A DNA stretch of 27,578 bases from a virus. The position numbers were made by a program, and so were the translations under genes. Each line of letters opens with the position of its first letter. Within the stretch, counting starts at the first letter, position 1. The notes beneath the pieces were generated by a model. The model made no database searches, was not told the DNA's origin, and saw only the letters and a program-made list of their open reading frames with translations. The stretch is from positions 1 to 27,578 of the IMG/VR virus record IMGVR_UViG_3300030382_003300; one strand, 5' to 3'. Of this stretch, positions 3,435 through 26,320 are shown one piece after another.

Positions 3435-6400
3435 ATGGGAAGTACTAAAGTTGAAGCACCGATTATAAAAGACGTTGATATAGCCCAATCGCTTATAGAT
3501 AGTGCTCGGGGATATAAGGATGCGGCAGGTGATATAATTGCAGCCGAAAAAAAATTGCGCCCAGAAATGCAGAAGCTGGCTTTGGCTGATGCCAAAATGG
3601 CTTTACAGGGAGCCACTCCTGAACTTAGAAGGGAAAGAGATGCAGCACAAGCAGCTGTCGATGCTCAAACGGCTGCGAAAAGTAAAGCCGAGTCAGAGAT
3701 TCAAACTAATATAGCTGAGATTAAGAATAGGAAGTTTGATGTAGAAGCCCAAAAAGCTGAGTGGAAGGAGAACCAGGAATTTTATGCGGGTGAAAAAGAG
3801 AAAACAGAGAAAACTCTGGGCAATTTTCTTCAGGCAAGTTTTGCAGCTAGATCTAATACTGGAGAATTAAACAAGTTTAAAAGTAAATATAGCGAATTAT
3901 ACCATAAATCAACGGGTAAACTTAAAAAAGAAAACGAAGTTTCACCTGAAGAGTATAATCGATTAGGCGAAAGATCTGGGGAGGGGCAGTGGAAACAGGA
4001 TCTTAAAGATGCTTTGGACACTGAAAAAAAACTCGATGCTTGGGATTCGGGAAAGGAATATGACTGGCTCAAAAAACAGGCAGAAGACAAAGATCAAAGC
4101 GTAACGACCTATCTTAGAGAGACTGTTAAAGGCTATGACAAGTCTTTAGAGACCGTTACCAACGAGCTGGCTGCTTCCGATGCCGATATCCGTGAGTATA
4201 AAAAAGAAGAACATGAGGCCGCCACAAAGATGTTGGTTACTGCGGAAAACGATAGGATAACCGAGTTGGCTAAGAGTGGAAATTTTGAGGCTGCCGATAT
4301 TGAACGGTTGCAGGGTGAGCTTCAAGAAGCCAGCGATGCTGTTCTTACTGGTAGTCCGGGTATGCTTGATCTGGCGGAAGAGGCCGTTGAGAGACAAGCT
4401 GCCGTTGGTGAAAAACTTAAGAAAGCTGCTGCTGCAAATGAGTTTCATACCATTCAGGAATTAGCCCCTGAGCTGGTAGAAATGTATAGGGAGGCTGATC
4501 CGGGTTCTGTTGAATTAGCTGATTTAGCATCCAAGAGAGCACAGCAAATGATTGATCGCCCGGAGGCGGGATATTCAGAACAGCAAACTGCGATGAAGCA
4601 GTTGAGAGAAGACGTTGGGTTAGCTCCAGTTGGAGGACCATTGGGAGCGGATGTAGAGAGAGAAACAAAAGCGATGTTGGGGAAGGATGAGCTTGGTCCA
4701 ACTACCGCCACCCAGAGTGTTGTCCAAGCTATTGGAAGCCTGTTAGGTGGACCAGCAGCGTCGGCAGCGGAAACAGCCCTTTTAGCAGCAGGTGGAGCAG
4801 AACCCGGCGGGGCAGCACAAGCAGAGGCACTATCACGATTTGGAGCAGAACAATTGGCTGCGACAGCGAGACCGGCTGGAGCTGCTGAAATTGCTTTATT
4901 AGCAGCCGCTCAAAGACCAACAGAAGCAACGGGTTTAGCACAATTTGGAGCAGACCAAATGGCTGCTACTGGTAGAACGGTTTCACCCCTAGAATCAGCA
5001 TTGGGAGCCGCTGCGGCGGATCGTCTAGGTGCCGAACAACGGCGAGCTGGAACGGGAGAAACCGATATAAGAACGGCGGCACAAGCCTTGTTGGGACGAG
5101 CAGCAGGTGGTCCTTCTGCTGTTCAACAAGATGTTCAAACGCAAGCATTGCTTGATATTGCCGAAGGTGTTCGTGGCGCATCCTCAACGGAACAAGCGTT
5201 AAGGCAAGCTGCTGAAACAGGTTTGGGAGCAACTCAAAGGACTGAAGGGGCCAGAGAGCAGGCTTTAACGGCGGAAGGACTACGATTGTTGCAACAACAG
5301 GCAGGTGGACCATCTGGCGTTCAAAGCGCAATGGCTGATGCTGCCATAAGAGATATGGGAGCTGGAGCCAGGGGAGCTTCTCCTCTTGAAACCGCTTTAG
5401 GCGTATCAGGAATGCGTGGTCTGAATGCTCAAGCTAGAGGAGCTTCTGATATTGAACAAGCCCTTAGTGCTTCAGCGATGCGTGGCATGGGTGCCGATGT
5501 CAGGGCTGCTTCTGAAGTGGAAAGAGCTTTAGGGTTGTCAGCCATGCGTGGTATGGATGCTCAACAACGTGCAGCTTCTCCCGAACAGATTGCAATGCAG
5601 GCACGAATTGGAGAACTCATAGGTGGAGCCGGAAGACTTTCCGATATGGAACAACGTCAGGTGGATCAGGAGATGTTGGCATTACAACAACGTCAGGGTA
5701 GAGCCAGAGATACTGGTGCTGCCGCTGCTGTTACTGGTCGCATGGCTGAGGCTCGACGGGCTGATCTTGGTCAGGATTTGGGTCTAGCTTCTAGCCTTCT
5801 TGGTCAACAAGATGCTTTGACACAAGCTGCAATTCAAGAGCAGATGCAAGCGCAAGCATTAGGACAACAGGGTGCCCTTGGTGCTGCTGGACTGGAGTCT
5901 GCGAGACAGGATGAGATGATGAGACAAAGGGCTTTAGGGCAAGCTGGTGCTACCAGTGTCGCTGGTCTCGAAGCAGGCAGGCAAGATGAAATGCTCCGGC
6001 AGCAAGCACTGGGTCAACAGGGAGTTCTGGGCGCAGCCGGATTGGAAGCAGGCAGACAAGATGAGATGTTCAGACAACAAGCTTTAGGTCAACAGGCGGG
6101 TGTATCGGCACAACAAATGGACCTTGCCAGAGCGCAACAACTGGCATCAGAAAGGCAAGCAGGAGCTGGATTTTTAGGAGAAGCTGAAAGCCTGCAACAA
6201 GCTAGAATACAAGAAGGCTTACAGCGTCAGGGAATTGCTCAACAGGCTGCTGCTCAAACAATGGGTCAGGAAACGGCAAGACAGCAAGAACAGTTACGCA
6301 GACAAGCGCAAGGGTTGCAGGCCGGAATGACAGCAGAGCAGATGGAGCTTGCCAGACAACAACAAGGAATTGCTGCCACTCAAGCAGGGGCAGGGTTGGT

Positions 6401-7381: not shown

Positions 7382-8749
7382 ATGGCTAAATTAGGATCAT
7401 CAGTAGACGCAAGACTTTCACGGATAAGTCCCTACGCAACTAGTGCTATACTGCAAGGCGGTGCTTCAATGGGAGCCGGGTATTCCGCTGTTGGTGCCGG
7501 TCTCGGTAAAGCTATAACATCTATAATGCACCAGATTGAAGAAAGTCGCATAGATGAAATTTTGAACGAGGCACTTATGCCACAGGAGCCTGAGATGCAG
7601 ACCACTCCCTCGGTTATAGGGGAATTTACATCTCCTGCCGATATGCAGCGAAAGCCAATTGAAGGAACCGGCCATCAGCCTTACACCCCAGTGTTGGATT
7701 CTGAAGGCAAACCAACCACCTATTCTCAATTAGACGAAAAAGCTATCCGTCGTTTTCTGTCTGATAAAAAAGTTTTTGGTAGAAATATTTCCGAGAAACG
7801 CATTGCTTCATTTTTGAAACAAGAAAGGGATTCCATAAATTCTAACAACACCACTCAAATATCTTTAGCCGCTTTAGAGGATCAACAAGAAACAAATAGG
7901 GCTAACAGACAGTTAGCCGAAGAGAAAGAGACCACTCGCCAAGCTGAAGTTGAAGCTGGCATTTTAAGAGATAAAGGGTATCAGGAAGAACGAATGGGTG
8001 TTATAAGACAGACCAGAGACACTCAGCAGAAGCTCCTCGACCAACAAATTATAGAGACTGAGGCAGCGGTAGCCGAATTAGCCGCAGGCACAGCCGAAAG
8101 AACAGCAACTGCCGAAGGCAGGAAGGCGGAAGAAAAAATGTTTGATAAATTTAGAATTCAATTAGAAAGAGGTAGAGCTATAATTAACAATCCAGAGTCT
8201 ACCCAAGAAGATTACGCAAAGGTTCAAACAGATTTGAGATCCCTCCTTAACACCTACGGCCTAGCAACAAGTCAAGAAACTCTTGCGATGGCGCAGTTGG
8301 AGGCGACGGGCGAATTGATAATGGACGAGAAGTTAGACCTCGACGATCAAATCAATGCGGCGGCCAATGCCTTTTATGCAGATACAACTCAAGTTGAGCT
8401 TTTTGATCAAAAGCGAGCAGATGATCCGCAAGCACTCTTAGCAACAATGCTAACCTTATTGGAGGATCCAAATATCAAGACCGAAAAGCTTGAAAAACTA
8501 TATACTCTTTTGAATCAAGACGTAAGGAACAAAGCTGCAGCAAGGAAATCACTGGGCCTAAATGGTGGTAACCCTCCTCCAGCACCAGTAACTCAAACAT
8601 CTGCGTCTGGAAATACAACTTATCCAGGTAATTATATCTGGCCATGGTTCCGCAAGGAAGGGGTTCCCTACCTCGGAGCACCCACCATTGGTGAAACTCA
8701 AATGGGTCAAGCTATTCATAGCTGGCTCACCCCTGACCAAGACAAGTAA
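7382..8749 (+). CDS. coiled-coil virion-associated protein, 455 aa
   Basis: Not recognised as a named family. The ATG has an AAGGAG site 8 bases upstream. The N-terminus (residues ~20-50, ILQGGASMGAGYSAVGAGLG) is Gly/Ala-rich and could contact membrane. Residues ~145-265 are Glu/Gln/Arg-rich and predicted helical (coiled coil). The C-terminus holds a Pro/Ser/Thr linker and a short aromatic segment (YIWPWFRKEGVPYLGAP). It lies between two giant virion proteins and its stop overlaps the next start by one base (TAATG), so the two are translated together. By position it is a likely internal/ejection protein, the middle one of three. No enzymatic residues are visible. Confidence 0.75.
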   Translation: MAKLGSSVDARLSRISPYATSAILQGGASMGAGYSAVGAGLGKAITSIMHQIEESRIDEILNEALMPQEPEMQTTPSVIGEFTSPADMQRKPIEGTGHQPYTPVLDSEGKPTTYSQLDEKAIRRFLSDKKVFGRNISEKRIASFLKQERDSINSNNTTQISLAALEDQQETNRANRQLAEEKETTRQAEVEAGILRDKGYQEERMGVIRQTRDTQQKLLDQQIIETEAAVAELAAGTAERTATAEGRKAEEKMFDKFRIQLERGRAIINNPESTQEDYAKVQTDLRSLLNTYGLATSQETLAMAQLEATGELIMDEKLDLDDQINAAANAFYADTTQVELFDQKRADDPQALLATMLTLLEDPNIKTEKLEKLYTLLNQDVRNKAAARKSLGLNGGNPPPAPVTQTSASGNTTYPGNYIWPWFRKEGVPYLGAPTIGETQMGQAIHSWLTPDQDK

Positions 8750-19897: not shown

Positions 19898-20152
19898 CTA
19901 CCTTTCAATCACCGAGATGACACTGGATTTATTGTGTCGTCTGCGGGAGCTGATTAGCCCACGCCGTGAGAGCCTGCTGATGGCCCTCGAAACGGTTTGC
20001 GGGTTGAGTCCGGTGAGGTGTGCCACCTGCTTGTTGCTCGGCCAGCATTTGCCTGTTCTGCTGTTGGCAAAATGGGCAAGGCACAGGAGCACCAACTTCT
20101 CGGTTGATGGAAGCCGGTGCTTGAACGCCTCGTTAATGTGATTAAACCCCAT
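19898..20152 (-). CDS. winged helix-turn-helix protein (HTH_36-like), 84 aa
   Basis: The pattern LPSTEKLVLLCLAHFAN ... CWPSNKQVAHLTGLNPQTVS ... ISRLSRRGLISSRRR is that of the helix-turn-helix domain common in phage replication-initiator and transcription-factor N-termini. Here it stands alone. The recognition helix is near LNPQTVSRAISRL and the wing is basic. It begins 11 bp inside the end of the HNH-AP2 gene. It may bind the AT-rich region that lies immediately downstream of it, or a phage promoter; this is inference. Confidence 0.78.
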   Translation of the reverse strand: MGFNHINEAFKHRLPSTEKLVLLCLAHFANSRTGKCWPSNKQVAHLTGLNPQTVSRAISRLSRRGLISSRRRHNKSSVISVIER

Positions 20153-20669
20153 TTAACGCTTCTGGGTTGAAGCCTTCATTGATGGCTGCCTTGTCATAGG
20201 CTCTTGCTGCTTCTTCCTCCTCATCAAAGCGGCCAAGGTGTTTCAACTTGCCCCCAGTAGCTCGTGGGGCCAACATAATTTTCGCCTCCCATTTCTTGTG
20301 ACACTTGTGCCAAGAGACACCTCGGAATCTAGAAGTGCATCCTTGTCTCTTTTTTGCAAAGCTTCTGCTATTCCCTTGACGGGTTACCATCCTCAGGTTT
20401 TCAACGTGGTTTTCTTTCTTTTTCCCATTGATGTGGTCTACCTCTAAACTCTCATCCCAATCAGGGAGGAAGGCTTTAGCAAGTAGGCGGTGAGTGCGAT
20501 ACCATTTTTGTTTCCCTCCTTTGTAAATACCAACTTTACAGTAGCGATAGTCACCGACTTGGTGCTTTAGCATTCTAATCCTGCCAAATTTCAGGGACCT
20601 AACCCTGCCTTGGTTGGAAACTTGATAGTCTCCGTCGTAACCCGGAATGTCTTTCCATATTTCTGTCAT
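20142..20669 (-). CDS. homing-type endonuclease: NUMOD4 + HNH + AP2, 175 aa
   Basis: Residues 4-26 are a NUMOD4 motif (IWKDIPGYDGDYQVSNQGRV). An HNH_3-type core follows (H60 in RTHRLLAKAF, then EVDHINGKKKENHVENLR with D78-H79-N81). Residues ~112-163 form an AP2 DNA-binding domain (SRFRGVSWHKCHKKWEAKI ... LGRFDEEEEAARAYDKAA). This domain set is well known from free-standing homing endonucleases of phages. The start is coupled by ATGA to the 40-aa membrane protein and the end overlaps the winged-helix gene, so it is unusually tightly embedded for a mobile gene. All core residues look intact. Confidence 0.9.
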   Translation of the reverse strand: MTEIWKDIPGYDGDYQVSNQGRVRSLKFGRIRMLKHQVGDYRYCKVGIYKGGKQKWYRTHRLLAKAFLPDWDESLEVDHINGKKKENHVENLRMVTRQGNSRSFAKKRQGCTSRFRGVSWHKCHKKWEAKIMLAPRATGGKLKHLGRFDEEEEAARAYDKAAINEGFNPEALNGV

Positions 20670-23155: not shown

Positions 23156-23401
23156 TTAGTTGATTGATTTTTGGCAATTTTTCCAATATTGAAGCGTCAG
23201 GTTAAAACCTTTAGTAATTTGAATAATATCTCTAGTACTAATTGGCCAGCGATTGTAAGGACAGTTTGCAAGGTATTGCGCCTTGCAGTTTTCCTTAGCT
23301 TCTTTGCTAGTTTTTCCAACGCCTATCGTTTCAATTATTTCTTGGCCTTCCCAGTAGGTGATCGAATATATTTTTTCAGGGTTATTTGATTGATCTTTCA
23401 T
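23156..23401 (-). CDS. small early protein, 81 aa
   Basis: Not recognised. First gene of the leftward transcript, about 30 bp after a good promoter. The sequence begins MKDQSNNPEKIYSITYWEGQ, has an antiparallel-strand look up to GVGKTSKEAKENCKAQYLA, and ends in a basic/aromatic part with three Cys in total. The GVGKTS string resembles a P-loop only by chance: it lacks the preceding G-x4 pattern and the protein is too small. The gp88-like gene begins 23 bp after it. Confidence 0.6.
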   Translation of the reverse strand: MKDQSNNPEKIYSITYWEGQEIIETIGVGKTSKEAKENCKAQYLANCPYNRWPISTRDIIQITKGFNLTLQYWKNCQKSIN

Positions 23402-23435: not shown

Positions 23436-23464
23436 ACTCTACAGGCTTTTATTTTCGGAGTCAA
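23436..23464 (-). promoter_or_regulatory. sigma70-like leftward early promoter
   Basis: On the - strand, TTGACT (23459-23464, 5/6) is followed by a 17-bp spacer and TAGAGT (23436-23441, 4/6). The expected start point is near 23429, leaving a leader of about 28 bases before the ATG at 23401. This is the best host-type promoter seen in the window and would drive the leftward block. Confidence 0.65.
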
Positions 23465-23692
23465 ACTGTTTTTTCACTTGTTTATTAACAGGGTTAAGTA
23501 GTTGAATATCAGTAGCTTAGGTTACAATTGAGCTATATTCACAGAAATTAATTTGAAGAAAATTGAGCAGCAAAATATGGATTCCCTAGGCCTCAAAAGA
23601 TTTACAACAATGGGTGAAATTGCCGCCAGTTCCGGCCGTTGCGTGGCTATTTCCTTTCTACCAGCACACGCACACGCACGAGCACACACAGG

Positions 23693-23711
23693 GTATCCGG
23701 TAAATGGATAC
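23693..23711. promoter_or_regulatory. operator-like dyad 1 (GTATCC-N7-GGATAC)
   Basis: Perfect 6-bp arms, spacer GGTAAAT. It is one of three dyads with identical arm sequence and spacer length. Centre-to-centre distance to dyad 2 is 37 bp. Confidence 0.75.
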
Positions 23712-23729
23712 AGTGAGGAAAGTGGTAGT

Positions 23730-23748
23730 GTATCCGAATGAAGGATAC
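23730..23748. promoter_or_regulatory. operator-like dyad 2 (GTATCC-N7-GGATAC)
   Basis: Perfect arms, spacer GAATGAA; the symmetry extends one base further on each side (T...A). Distance to dyad 3 is 28 bp. Confidence 0.75.
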
Positions 23749-23757
23749 AGCTTAATT

Positions 23758-23776
23758 GTATTCGCACATTGGATAC
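23758..23776. promoter_or_regulatory. operator-like dyad 3 (GTATTC-N7-GGATAC)
   Basis: Same geometry with one arm mismatch, spacer GCACATT. Symmetry extends two more bases on each side (TT...AA), which partly makes up for the mismatch. Confidence 0.7.
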
Positions 23777-23842: not shown

Positions 23843-23860
23843 GGGGAGGGGGTCGGGGGG
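23843..23860 (+). other. G-rich tract
   Basis: Runs of 4, 5 and 6 G separated by A and TC on the + strand. It could form a two-layer G-quadruplex, but only three long runs are present, so a stable three-layer form is unlikely. It lies about 80 bp before the TerS start. Confidence 0.4.
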
Positions 23861-23942
23861 ACCAGGCCTTCAGCTATATATATAGATTAACTGCCCTATA
23901 AAAAAATTTGACCAATGGGGCCAGTTGCCGTAGCTATTTTGA

Positions 23943-24494
23943 ATGATTACAGACCAAGATGACAAAAAAGAATTAATTAATTCTATCCGAGATGGTATTA
24001 ACGAGGTAAAGGAAGCCCTGACGGTCCCGAAGAGCCTGAGTAAGTATAACCCTGAGAAGGTGGCTACTATCCTTTATTTACATTCTATTGGAGTGACTCA
24101 GACCCAGATGGAGAAAAAGTATGGATTGGGGAGCCGCACTACTTCTAACATATTGGTTCAGTATGCTGATTACACAAACCGCTGGAAGGCTATGGGGGCG
24201 AACATCCGTGGTCGTCATTTCCTGGAACTTTCTTCTTTGGAGGAAAGTTTAATTGATGCGTTAAAGGAGCGAATGGCGAATGGTGAGATTAAGCCAACCT
24301 TTCGGGATTTATTACCTTTAAGCATTGCATTGGAGAAGGCCGAGAAGGGAAGTAATACATTCCGTGGCGAGGCCAGTAATATTATTGAGGAGCGAAAGAT
24401 GGTGACACAGGCGGATTACGAGGCGACGGTGGAGGCTGCCCGAAAACGTATGTTACAATTAAAGAAGGCCGAGGCCATTAATAATGACGGATGA
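23943..24494 (+). CDS. terminase small subunit candidate, 183 aa
   Basis: Proposed DNA-recognition subunit of the packaging motor. Residues ~36-80 contain a helix-turn-helix-like segment (NPEKVATILYLHSIGVTQTQ, then KKYGLGSRTTSNIL). The remainder is helical and charged, as expected for oligomerisation, ending in a basic segment (AARKRMLQLKKAEA). It is the first rightward gene and lies just upstream of the large terminase, the standard position for TerS. No Shine-Dalgarno precedes the ATG; a TTGACC hexamer at 23908 with a poor -10 would give an almost leaderless mRNA. Identification rests on position and HTH, since TerS sequences diverge widely. Confidence 0.7.
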   Translation: MITDQDDKKELINSIRDGINEVKEALTVPKSLSKYNPEKVATILYLHSIGVTQTQMEKKYGLGSRTTSNILVQYADYTNRWKAMGANIRGRHFLELSSLEESLIDALKERMANGEIKPTFRDLLPLSIALEKAEKGSNTFRGEASNIIEERKMVTQADYEATVEAARKRMLQLKKAEAINNDG

Positions 24495-24681
24495 AGATAT
24501 TGAGTTGATTGTTTCTATTCTTTCTGAAACAACGGATAAGTTCTGGGTTGTTTATGAGTCTGACCAGAAGTTTATGATGTTTGGGGGAAGTCCTTGGGAG
24601 CTGAAGGATCAGTTGGACGGGAAGGTAAATCCGTTTAGTTGGAGGGATAGGTTTAGTAAGCCTCACTGGGATGAAATTTAG
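24484..24681 (+). CDS. small protein between TerS and TerL, 65 aa
   Basis: Not recognised. An acidic, aromatic-rich protein (DKFWVVYESDQKFMMFGGSP is typical). It overlaps TerS by 11 bp and TerL by 11 bp, and no other frame fills this gap, so it is probably real and co-translated. It may be an accessory packaging protein, by position only. Confidence 0.6.
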   Translation: MTDEDIELIVSILSETTDKFWVVYESDQKFMMFGGSPWELKDQLDGKVNPFSWRDRFSKPHWDEI

Positions 24682-26320
24682 TCCTCACCCGATATTATCT
24701 GGGCCGTCAGACGAGGAAATTGTGTTCTGGGGGGAGAATGACCCTGGAACCCTTGAAGGTTTGCACACGGCACACGAGGAGCGTATTTTAAGCAGCAAGA
24801 CAGACCCTGTGAGGTATGGGTTTGACCTGGACGGCTGGAACCGCATTCGTTCCGGGTTGGATGAATACAACGAGTGTTTATGCCTTGGTGGTAATCGCAG
24901 TGGTAAAACAACTGGATGCGCCAAGATAGTTATGGAGAGTGTCATGGCCAACAAGGATGGTCACATTGTATGTTTTTCACAGAATGCGGACACTAGTGTG
25001 AAGGTTCAGCAGGCGGTGATGTGGGAGATGATGCCCAAGGAGTTCAAGCGAAAGACTAAGGGTGTCGAGGGCTACATCAACTACTCGATGCAGAATGGTT
25101 TTACCGGGAGTGGTTTTATCTTTCCTGACACTCGGACCAGGGTGGATTTCAAAACCTACACTCAGTTTAGCAACAACCAGACCATTCTGGAGGGCTTTGA
25201 ATTTGGATTTAAGGCCGGAGATAGTATAAACCTCGGAGCTTGGTTGGATGAATATTTGGGTGATGACACATTAATTAACACTTTAAGGTTCAGGCTGGCT
25301 ACTCGGGACAGCAAGATGCTGATAGCGTTCACTCCGATTAATGGGTATACACCGTTCATTAATGAGTATTTAAAGGGTGGAGAAACCTTACAGACCAGGG
25401 AAGCGGTGTTGCTTAACCGGGAGTTGCCTGTAAAGCAGTATAGTCCTAACCGGGATGCTGCTGTTGTATATTTGCATTCTGACGAAAATCCGTTTGGTGG
25501 TTATCAGCGTATAGTTAAGGACTTGCGTGGGAGGCCGGATGACGAGGTGCTGGTCAGGGCTTACGGGATTCCGGTGAGGAGCATTACATCTCTGTTGCCG
25601 TTATTTAATACCGAGGTGAATGTTCTTAGTGAAACGCCTAACAAATATGGGATGGTGTTCCCTGATATATCTGACAGGGAGCAATTCACCTGCTACCAGG
25701 TGGTGGACCCTGCGGGAGCACGTAACTACACTTGTTTATGGGCTGGGGTGGATGAGGACGGATATGTATATATTCGCAAGGAATGGCCGGACCGGGATGG
25801 TTATGGTGAGTGGGCATTATTTGGTGATCCTAAATGGAAAACTGGACCGGCGACCAAGAAGCTGGGATTTAATGTGGAGACGTATGCTGATTTATTCAAG
25901 GAAATTGAAGAAGATTTGAACATTGATGTATTTGAGCGTATCGGGGATAGTCGTTATTTTTCCAGCGAGAATGAAAACAATGACGACTTATATATGTCGT
26001 TTGATGATTTTGGGATGGTATTTGTTCCTTCTGATGGTCGCCGTGAGGAAATTGGGATTAATGCCCTAGATGAATGGTTTATGTATAATCCTAACATTGC
26101 TGTAGATACGGTTAATAAACCGAGATGTTATATACACCGGGATTGCGGAAATTTAATTGACAGTTTAATTAATTATAATAGTCAGGGTAAGTCGGACGAA
26201 GCGTTGAAAGATTTTTTTGATTTGATACGTTATTTGCGAATGGCGAACGGAGGCGAAGGACCGGATCACATTACTAATCGCAGTATGCTGGTAACACAAA
26301 AAACTATGGGGGGATATTGA
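24671..26320 (+). CDS. terminase large subunit, 549 aa
   Basis: ATPase and nuclease that pumps phage DNA into the capsid and cuts it. The N-terminal ATPase domain has Walker A GGNRSGKT (73-80) and Walker B GAWLDE (189-194, with catalytic E194). Motif III-like sequence (LIAFTPING) is at 217-225. The C-terminal nuclease domain starts with QVVDPAG (D346) in an RNase H-like strand, followed by GDEDGYVYI-type strands and further acidic residues (IGDSRYF). Size is normal. The start overlaps the small gene upstream, and the stop TGA overlaps the next ATG. It defines the packaging module. Confidence 0.93.
   Translation: MKFSPHPILSGPSDEEIVFWGENDPGTLEGLHTAHEERILSSKTDPVRYGFDLDGWNRIRSGLDEYNECLCLGGNRSGKTTGCAKIVMESVMANKDGHIVCFSQNADTSVKVQQAVMWEMMPKEFKRKTKGVEGYINYSMQNGFTGSGFIFPDTRTRVDFKTYTQFSNNQTILEGFEFGFKAGDSINLGAWLDEYLGDDTLINTLRFRLATRDSKMLIAFTPINGYTPFINEYLKGGETLQTREAVLLNRELPVKQYSPNRDAAVVYLHSDENPFGGYQRIVKDLRGRPDDEVLVRAYGIPVRSITSLLPLFNTEVNVLSETPNKYGMVFPDISDREQFTCYQVVDPAGARNYTCLWAGVDEDGYVYIRKEWPDRDGYGEWALFGDPKWKTGPATKKLGFNVETYADLFKEIEEDLNIDVFERIGDSRYFSSENENNDDLYMSFDDFGMVFVPSDGRREEIGINALDEWFMYNPNIAVDTVNKPRCYIHRDCGNLIDSLINYNSQGKSDEALKDFFDLIRYLRMANGGEGPDHITNRSMLVTQKTMGGY

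Follow-up and report, generated by a model that had tools for sequence, protein, structure and literature searches.

The window, that is, the whole 27,578-nucleotide stretch analysed here, is a fragment of a virus genome with two divergent groups of genes. The leftward genes, on the minus strand at 13.1–23.4 kb, include those for DnaA-IV-like, exonuclease, primase/helicase-like, ribbon-helix-helix (RHH) and winged-helix proteins, and the rightward genes open with TerS followed by TerL. Between them lie three inverted repeats with the arms GTATCC and GGATAC separated by seven bases (Table 1). These dyads do not overlap the predicted core promoters, lying ~230 bp from the leftward and ~130 bp from the rightward one. 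To their right stands a conserved element with the layout GGGGAGGGGGTC, ~20 bp, then TATATATATAGATTAACTGCC..TAAAAAAA; its AT-rich stretch (23875–23907) is located 99 bp from the array, with the G-rich tract in between.

Table 1. Features of the divergent region and its flanking genes (window coordinates; a point marks features without strand).
Feature	Position	Strand	Description
First leftward gene	23156..23401	-	81 aa, product unknown
Putative leftward early promoter	23436..23464	-	TTGACT-N17-TAGAGT, promoter scan
Degenerate copy of motif TTGATnnnCAACnACTTA	23501..23521	.	kept between early genes and slot in relatives
Dyad 1	23693..23711	.	GTATCC-GGTAAAT-GGATAC, direct reading and pattern scan
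Dyad 2	23730..23748	.	GTATCC-GAATGAA-GGATAC, direct reading and pattern scan
Dyad 3	23758..23776	.	GTATTC-GCACATT-GGATAC, one arm base off; direct reading and pattern scan
Conserved core element beside slot	23843..23907	.	GGGGAGGGGGTCG, ~20 bp, then TATATATATAGATTAACTGCCCTATAAAAAAA
Putative rightward promoter	23908..23936	+	TTGACC-N17-TAGCTA, directly 5' of the TerS gene; predicted by sequence reading
TerS-like gene	23943..24494	+	183 aa, homologous in relatives
TerL gene	24671..26320	+	549 aa, phrog_2 match 2.3e-15

Direct reading and a pattern scan bore out the original prediction on the array itself: the three dyads are real, the third with a GTATTC arm, and their spacer sequences differ. 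Allowing up to one mismatch, they are the only GTATCC-N7-GGATAC sites of the whole record. We also scanned the whole window for dyads with any equal 6-base arms and an equal spacer of 3 to 12 bases lying within 100 bp of each other. Across the 27.6-kb record the GTATCC pair is the sole pair of exact equal dyads, whatever the arms, and the near-exact third copy adjoins it. Such pairs were absent from 100 dinucleotide-preserving shuffles of the window, so the array is beyond chance, as had been claimed. A literature search for the dyad itself returned nothing relevant.

A search with TerL yielded 80 related viral contigs and the phage C75C1, whose TerL is 72% identical and which lacks the dyads; a DNA search of the region in phage records gave no match. 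One relative, L005 (94% TerL identity), carries three dyads in the same place, at 1690, 1720 and 1754, with altered spacers and spacing. L005 and L006 have nearly identical TerL proteins, and in L006 an unrelated stretch replaces the dyads between kept flanks. Comparison of the relatives' sequences also found the dyads absent from this slot in L004, the sister of the window, and in L007. Further away, a two-dyad pattern scan, with copies of up to two arm changes counted, revealed 3–8 dyads in the slot of L085, L091, L092 and L095. The conservation in relatives that was anticipated is thus partial: L005 and distant relatives retain the dyads with different spacers, and other close relatives have the flanking genes but no dyads. 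Mapped onto the TerL tree, the GTATCC label requires four changes, of which supported branches force at least three, and the sister pairs window/L004 and L005/L006 differ in it.

The slot sits upstream of the TerS gene, beside the G-rich/AT-rich element, and it can hold other arrays. In L041, L048, L049, L053, L061, L063, L065, L067 and L069 it contains three to four copies of TGAGAC-N3-GTCTCA, and by reading the same holds for L071. Since GTATCC dyads are swapped between close relatives and TGAGAC arrays fill the slot of another branch, the slot is an exchange site for dyad arrays. The TGAGAC arrays, which in L061 span 7934–8127, have varied spacers. In the GTATCC arrays of L092, L095, L091 and L088, degenerate copies nearly always have the form GTATCC-N7-GAATAC reading towards TerS, and the variable half-site is the one nearer the core element.

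The arms being inverted, they might also act as RNA or single-strand hairpins with a 6-bp stem and a 7-base loop. Several degenerate copies can still pair through G-U on the leftward strand, and dyad 2 is terminator-like by scan score. However, the sequence of the arms is conserved instead of covarying, pairing is kept on different strands in the window, L005 and L092, and an Rfam search of the region gave no match, which leaves this reading a very remote one.

The flanks of the slot are more constant than its content. In L005 and L006 the leftward promoter reads TTGACT-N17-TAGGGT, and the rightward promoter of relatives reads TTGACA-N17-TATACT. Among more than 45 loci compared, nearly all relatives retain the G-rich/AT-rich core element whether or not they carry dyads, and the order GGGGGnGGGGGTC, ~20 bp, TATATATACATAAAC..TTAAAAA is found upstream of the TerS promoter across nearly the whole phage family. 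We considered the G-rich element as a cos site; this is unsupported because near-complete contigs cross it and contig ends are not piled up there. Left of the slot, TTGATnnnCAACnACTTA also occurs in L011, L017, L018, G003 (~7841), L087 and L095.

The original prediction left a choice between operators and origin iterons. In the latter case, the array would resemble the lambda origin, where 19-bp imperfect inverted repeats are flanked by an AT-rich tract (PMC7466680): an O-like initiator would bind the dyads and melt the adjoining AT-rich region, here the TATATATA/TTAAAAA element. The size and dyad form of the repeats fit, the gene at 19898–20152 codes for an O-like winged-helix protein, and the AT-rich element stands on one side of the array. 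Unlike the lambda iterons, the window array lies outside the initiator gene and is not linked to it, the initiator-like gene being 3.5 kb away. Close sisters with the same element have no array, the O-like family PF13730 is absent from the other array phages while present in the array-less L012, and the same dyad is scattered over host chromosomes. Missing in close sisters, the array is not a conserved essential origin of the phage family. A role as iterons is possible and, in our view, quite unlikely; the other part of the proposal, sites for a dimeric protein, is supported.

The same dyad is also present outside this family. L087, L088, L093 and L094 encode a different terminase of 432 aa and have no protein match to the window, and 2–6 GTATCC-N7-GGATAC dyads lie upstream of the terminase genes in these phages; the array thus recurs in an unrelated phage family. 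All exact copies found in phages have a spacer of seven bases. Five relatives, the unrelated phages and host chromosomes all have the same arms and spacing with free spacer sequences, which upholds the view that arms in this divergent control region have been selected for a dimeric DNA-binding protein. Selection on the arms is shown by these comparisons, and the dyads are most likely sites for one such protein.

The RHH, winged-helix, DnaA-IV and ParB-like proteins that the window encodes had been put forward as candidate binders. In an all-against-all protein comparison of the window with G002 (28 kb, containing L092) and G003 (41 kb, containing L093), no shared regulator was found. One exonuclease was the common early protein of the window and G002, and it also occurs in phages without the array; the window and G003 had no protein in common. 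Family searches recognised no DNA-binding family among the early proteins of G002, G003 and L091, except for one weak AT-hook match in G002. The winged-helix family PF13730 occurred in one of 20 array or array-less records, the array-less L012, and viral contigs yielded no relative of the ParB-like protein in a protein search. The four candidates are unsupported because the array-bearing phages have no DNA-binding protein in common.

A phage-encoded regulator, whether one of these four or an unrecognised small protein, would have the dimer switch early to late transcription from the array as its operators. The location of the array between divergent promoters suits this explanation, as do the RHH protein (Arc-like, phrog_3180) and the winged-helix protein (HTH_36) of the window. 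Yet the other phages bearing these dyads, the unrelated family among them, share none of the candidates with the window. The early module of L012 is like that of the window and L012 has no array; likewise, G002 has an early module like that of C75C1, which has no dyads. Each phage may encode its own unrecognised binder; all in all, we consider a phage regulator unlikely.

Bacterial chromosomes offered another source. Host genomes were counted with the 7-base spacer pattern. The sole tandem pair of the dyad found in a Verrucomicrobiota genome (L108) drew attention to Opitutaceae bacterium nzgw617 (G029), which contains 77 exact dyads against none for the reversed control. Among 388 Verrucomicrobiota genomes, most of which have 0–1, high counts were also obtained in G110 (16) and G259 (14). 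Within the Opitutaceae, G424 (complete, 5.8 Mb) reached 71 and G449 (complete) 22, and control matches in G029, G424, G449 and G110 numbered 0 to 2. The form GTATCCRN5YGGATAC totalled 153 copies in 150 Opitutaceae genomes versus 3 for its control; G121 had no copy of it. In a sample of 547 genomes from two other phyla, the dyad reached at most two copies per genome in Pseudomonadota (299 genomes) and at most three in Bacteroidota (248 genomes).

The chromosomal sites listed are mostly inside genes and use all three codon frames. Over-use of the half-site was rejected as their cause, GTATCC not being enriched outside dyads. A pure protein-motif origin was likewise discarded: there is one clear case, an M16 peptidase (L177/L210), yet all three frames are used. 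Long-hairpin copies such as those of G071 and G074 (GTATCCC...GGGATAC) look like another repeat and were not counted as support, and matches in Vibrio, Treponema, Oscillatoriaceae, Olsenella, Oscillospiraceae and Prevotella resemble coding or local repeats. G449 and G110 have sites in common with identical spacers. The promoter of a SWIB-domain gene (swib) carries the dyad in three of the genomes, with two copies in G029 and one each, with 1 mismatch, in G449 and G110. These SWIB-promoter loci are L218, L217 (dyad at 1923) and L219 (1216 and 1255).

The presence of one site in chromosomes of some soil and water bacteria and in an unrelated phage group suggests that the dyads are probably landing pads for a host-made protein. 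From the motifs in common, we infer that these phages infect Verrucomicrobiota. The dyad is abundant in some Opitutaceae genomes, presumably those of or near the hosts, and the motif left of the phage slot, GTTGATnnnCAACnACTTA, is over-represented in Verrucomicrobiota genomes (19 matches, control 0). TerL has only distant matches there (28–37%).

A known protein with similar sites is HipB of E. coli, which binds TATCCN8GGATA at four operators (PMC3376134; PMC3920265). The hipBA operators have identical TATCC/GGATA arms and a free spacer sequence, with several sites near one promoter, and the HipB dimer binds cooperatively. They differ from the phage dyads in their spacer of 8 instead of 7 bases and in the outer G/C, conserved in the phage dyads; because of the spacer, the dyads are not a HipB operator. 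Family searches over the window genes recognised no hipBA or Xre protein beside the phage array. By analogy, a HipB-like or other helix-turn-helix dimer is a natural guess for the binder.

The explanation that we prefer, with about even chances of being right, is that the dyads are sites for one dimeric protein that the bacterial host, rather than the phage, encodes, probably HipB-like (Xre/Cro-fold) or a similar helix-turn-helix dimer. The host would belong in or near the Opitutaceae (Verrucomicrobiota), where the dyad is chromosome-wide. The protein would read GTATCC/TATCC half-sites whose centres are separated by 13 bp. The phage would hold several copies in the swappable slot, between the leftward early promoter and the rightward TerS promoter and by the G-rich/AT-rich element, so that dimers on adjacent sites could form a local complex. 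The level or state of the host protein would thereby control early and late transcription or how active the adjacent element is. The array may serve the phage as a transcription switch, in origin control or in chromosome attachment. Evidence against a host binder comes from the chromosomal sites, whose mostly intragenic location is unusual for plain operators, and from the dyads lying clear of both predicted core promoters; the HipB spacer speaks against the HipB-like guess.

A precedent exists in phage GIL01, which carries LexA boxes, sites of the host repressor (PMC4551915). Both cases would place sites for a host chromosomal protein, a putative one here, in a phage control region; the candidate binder differs in that its host sites are mostly intragenic. 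The arrays could otherwise be borrowed sites of a host chromosome-organising or nucleoid-occlusion protein of the SlmA, Noc or MatP type, used for anchoring, segregation or division block and not for transcription. The host copies resemble such sites in being palindromic, single, scattered and mostly intragenic, with tens per chromosome, as in the 71 copies across the complete chromosome of G424. SlmA sites are more abundant near the origin (PMC4117426). Unlike SlmA or MatP sites, those of G424 are evenly spread: among the 50 of 71 sites listed, which extend to 3.8 Mb, no bias to origin or terminus was seen relative to dnaA (at 1.2 kb), and sites also occur opposite dnaA (2.83–3.02 Mb), where the terminus was assumed to be. 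MatP sites are confined to Ter. In addition, the dyads are arrayed in phages, and the swib promoter dyad suggests regulation. An organiser is therefore, in our estimation, improbable. To our knowledge, the dyad is not any LexA box.

The host-encoded binder may be an instance of a more general arrangement, which we propose tentatively, as a possibility with clearly less than an even chance. Phages of Verrucomicrobiota and of other bacteria would keep a swappable 'host-code' slot by an origin or late-promoter element, filled with the scattered dyad of the current host, GTATCC-N7-GGATAC or TGAGAC-N3-GTCTCA, and read by an undescribed genome-wide host protein. TGAGAC-N3-GTCTCA is also arrayed in many unrelated viral contigs (L223–L239). 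The comparisons suggest that a bacterial phylum which has received little study possesses an undescribed DNA-binding protein whose chromosomal sites number in the tens, and that phages repeatedly gain these sites in one exchangeable slot. They would offer a direct route to finding the binder, and a way to trace uncultured phages towards their hosts from sequence. In the Bacteroidota sample, the reversed control CATAGG-N7-CCTATG has 53 copies in one genome (G990), and scattered 6-N7-6 dyads with different arms may exist in other lineages.

Exchange has probably affected other parts of the window. The NUMOD4-HNH-AP2 protein at 20142–20669 is 69% identical to a protein at a different gene position in G011, the genome of L012, and its gene is probably a mobile one of the homing type. 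Over 603 residues the 1304-aa structural protein at 3435–7349 matches its G011 counterpart at 93% identity, against only 40–47% elsewhere, a pattern that reads as mosaic exchange.
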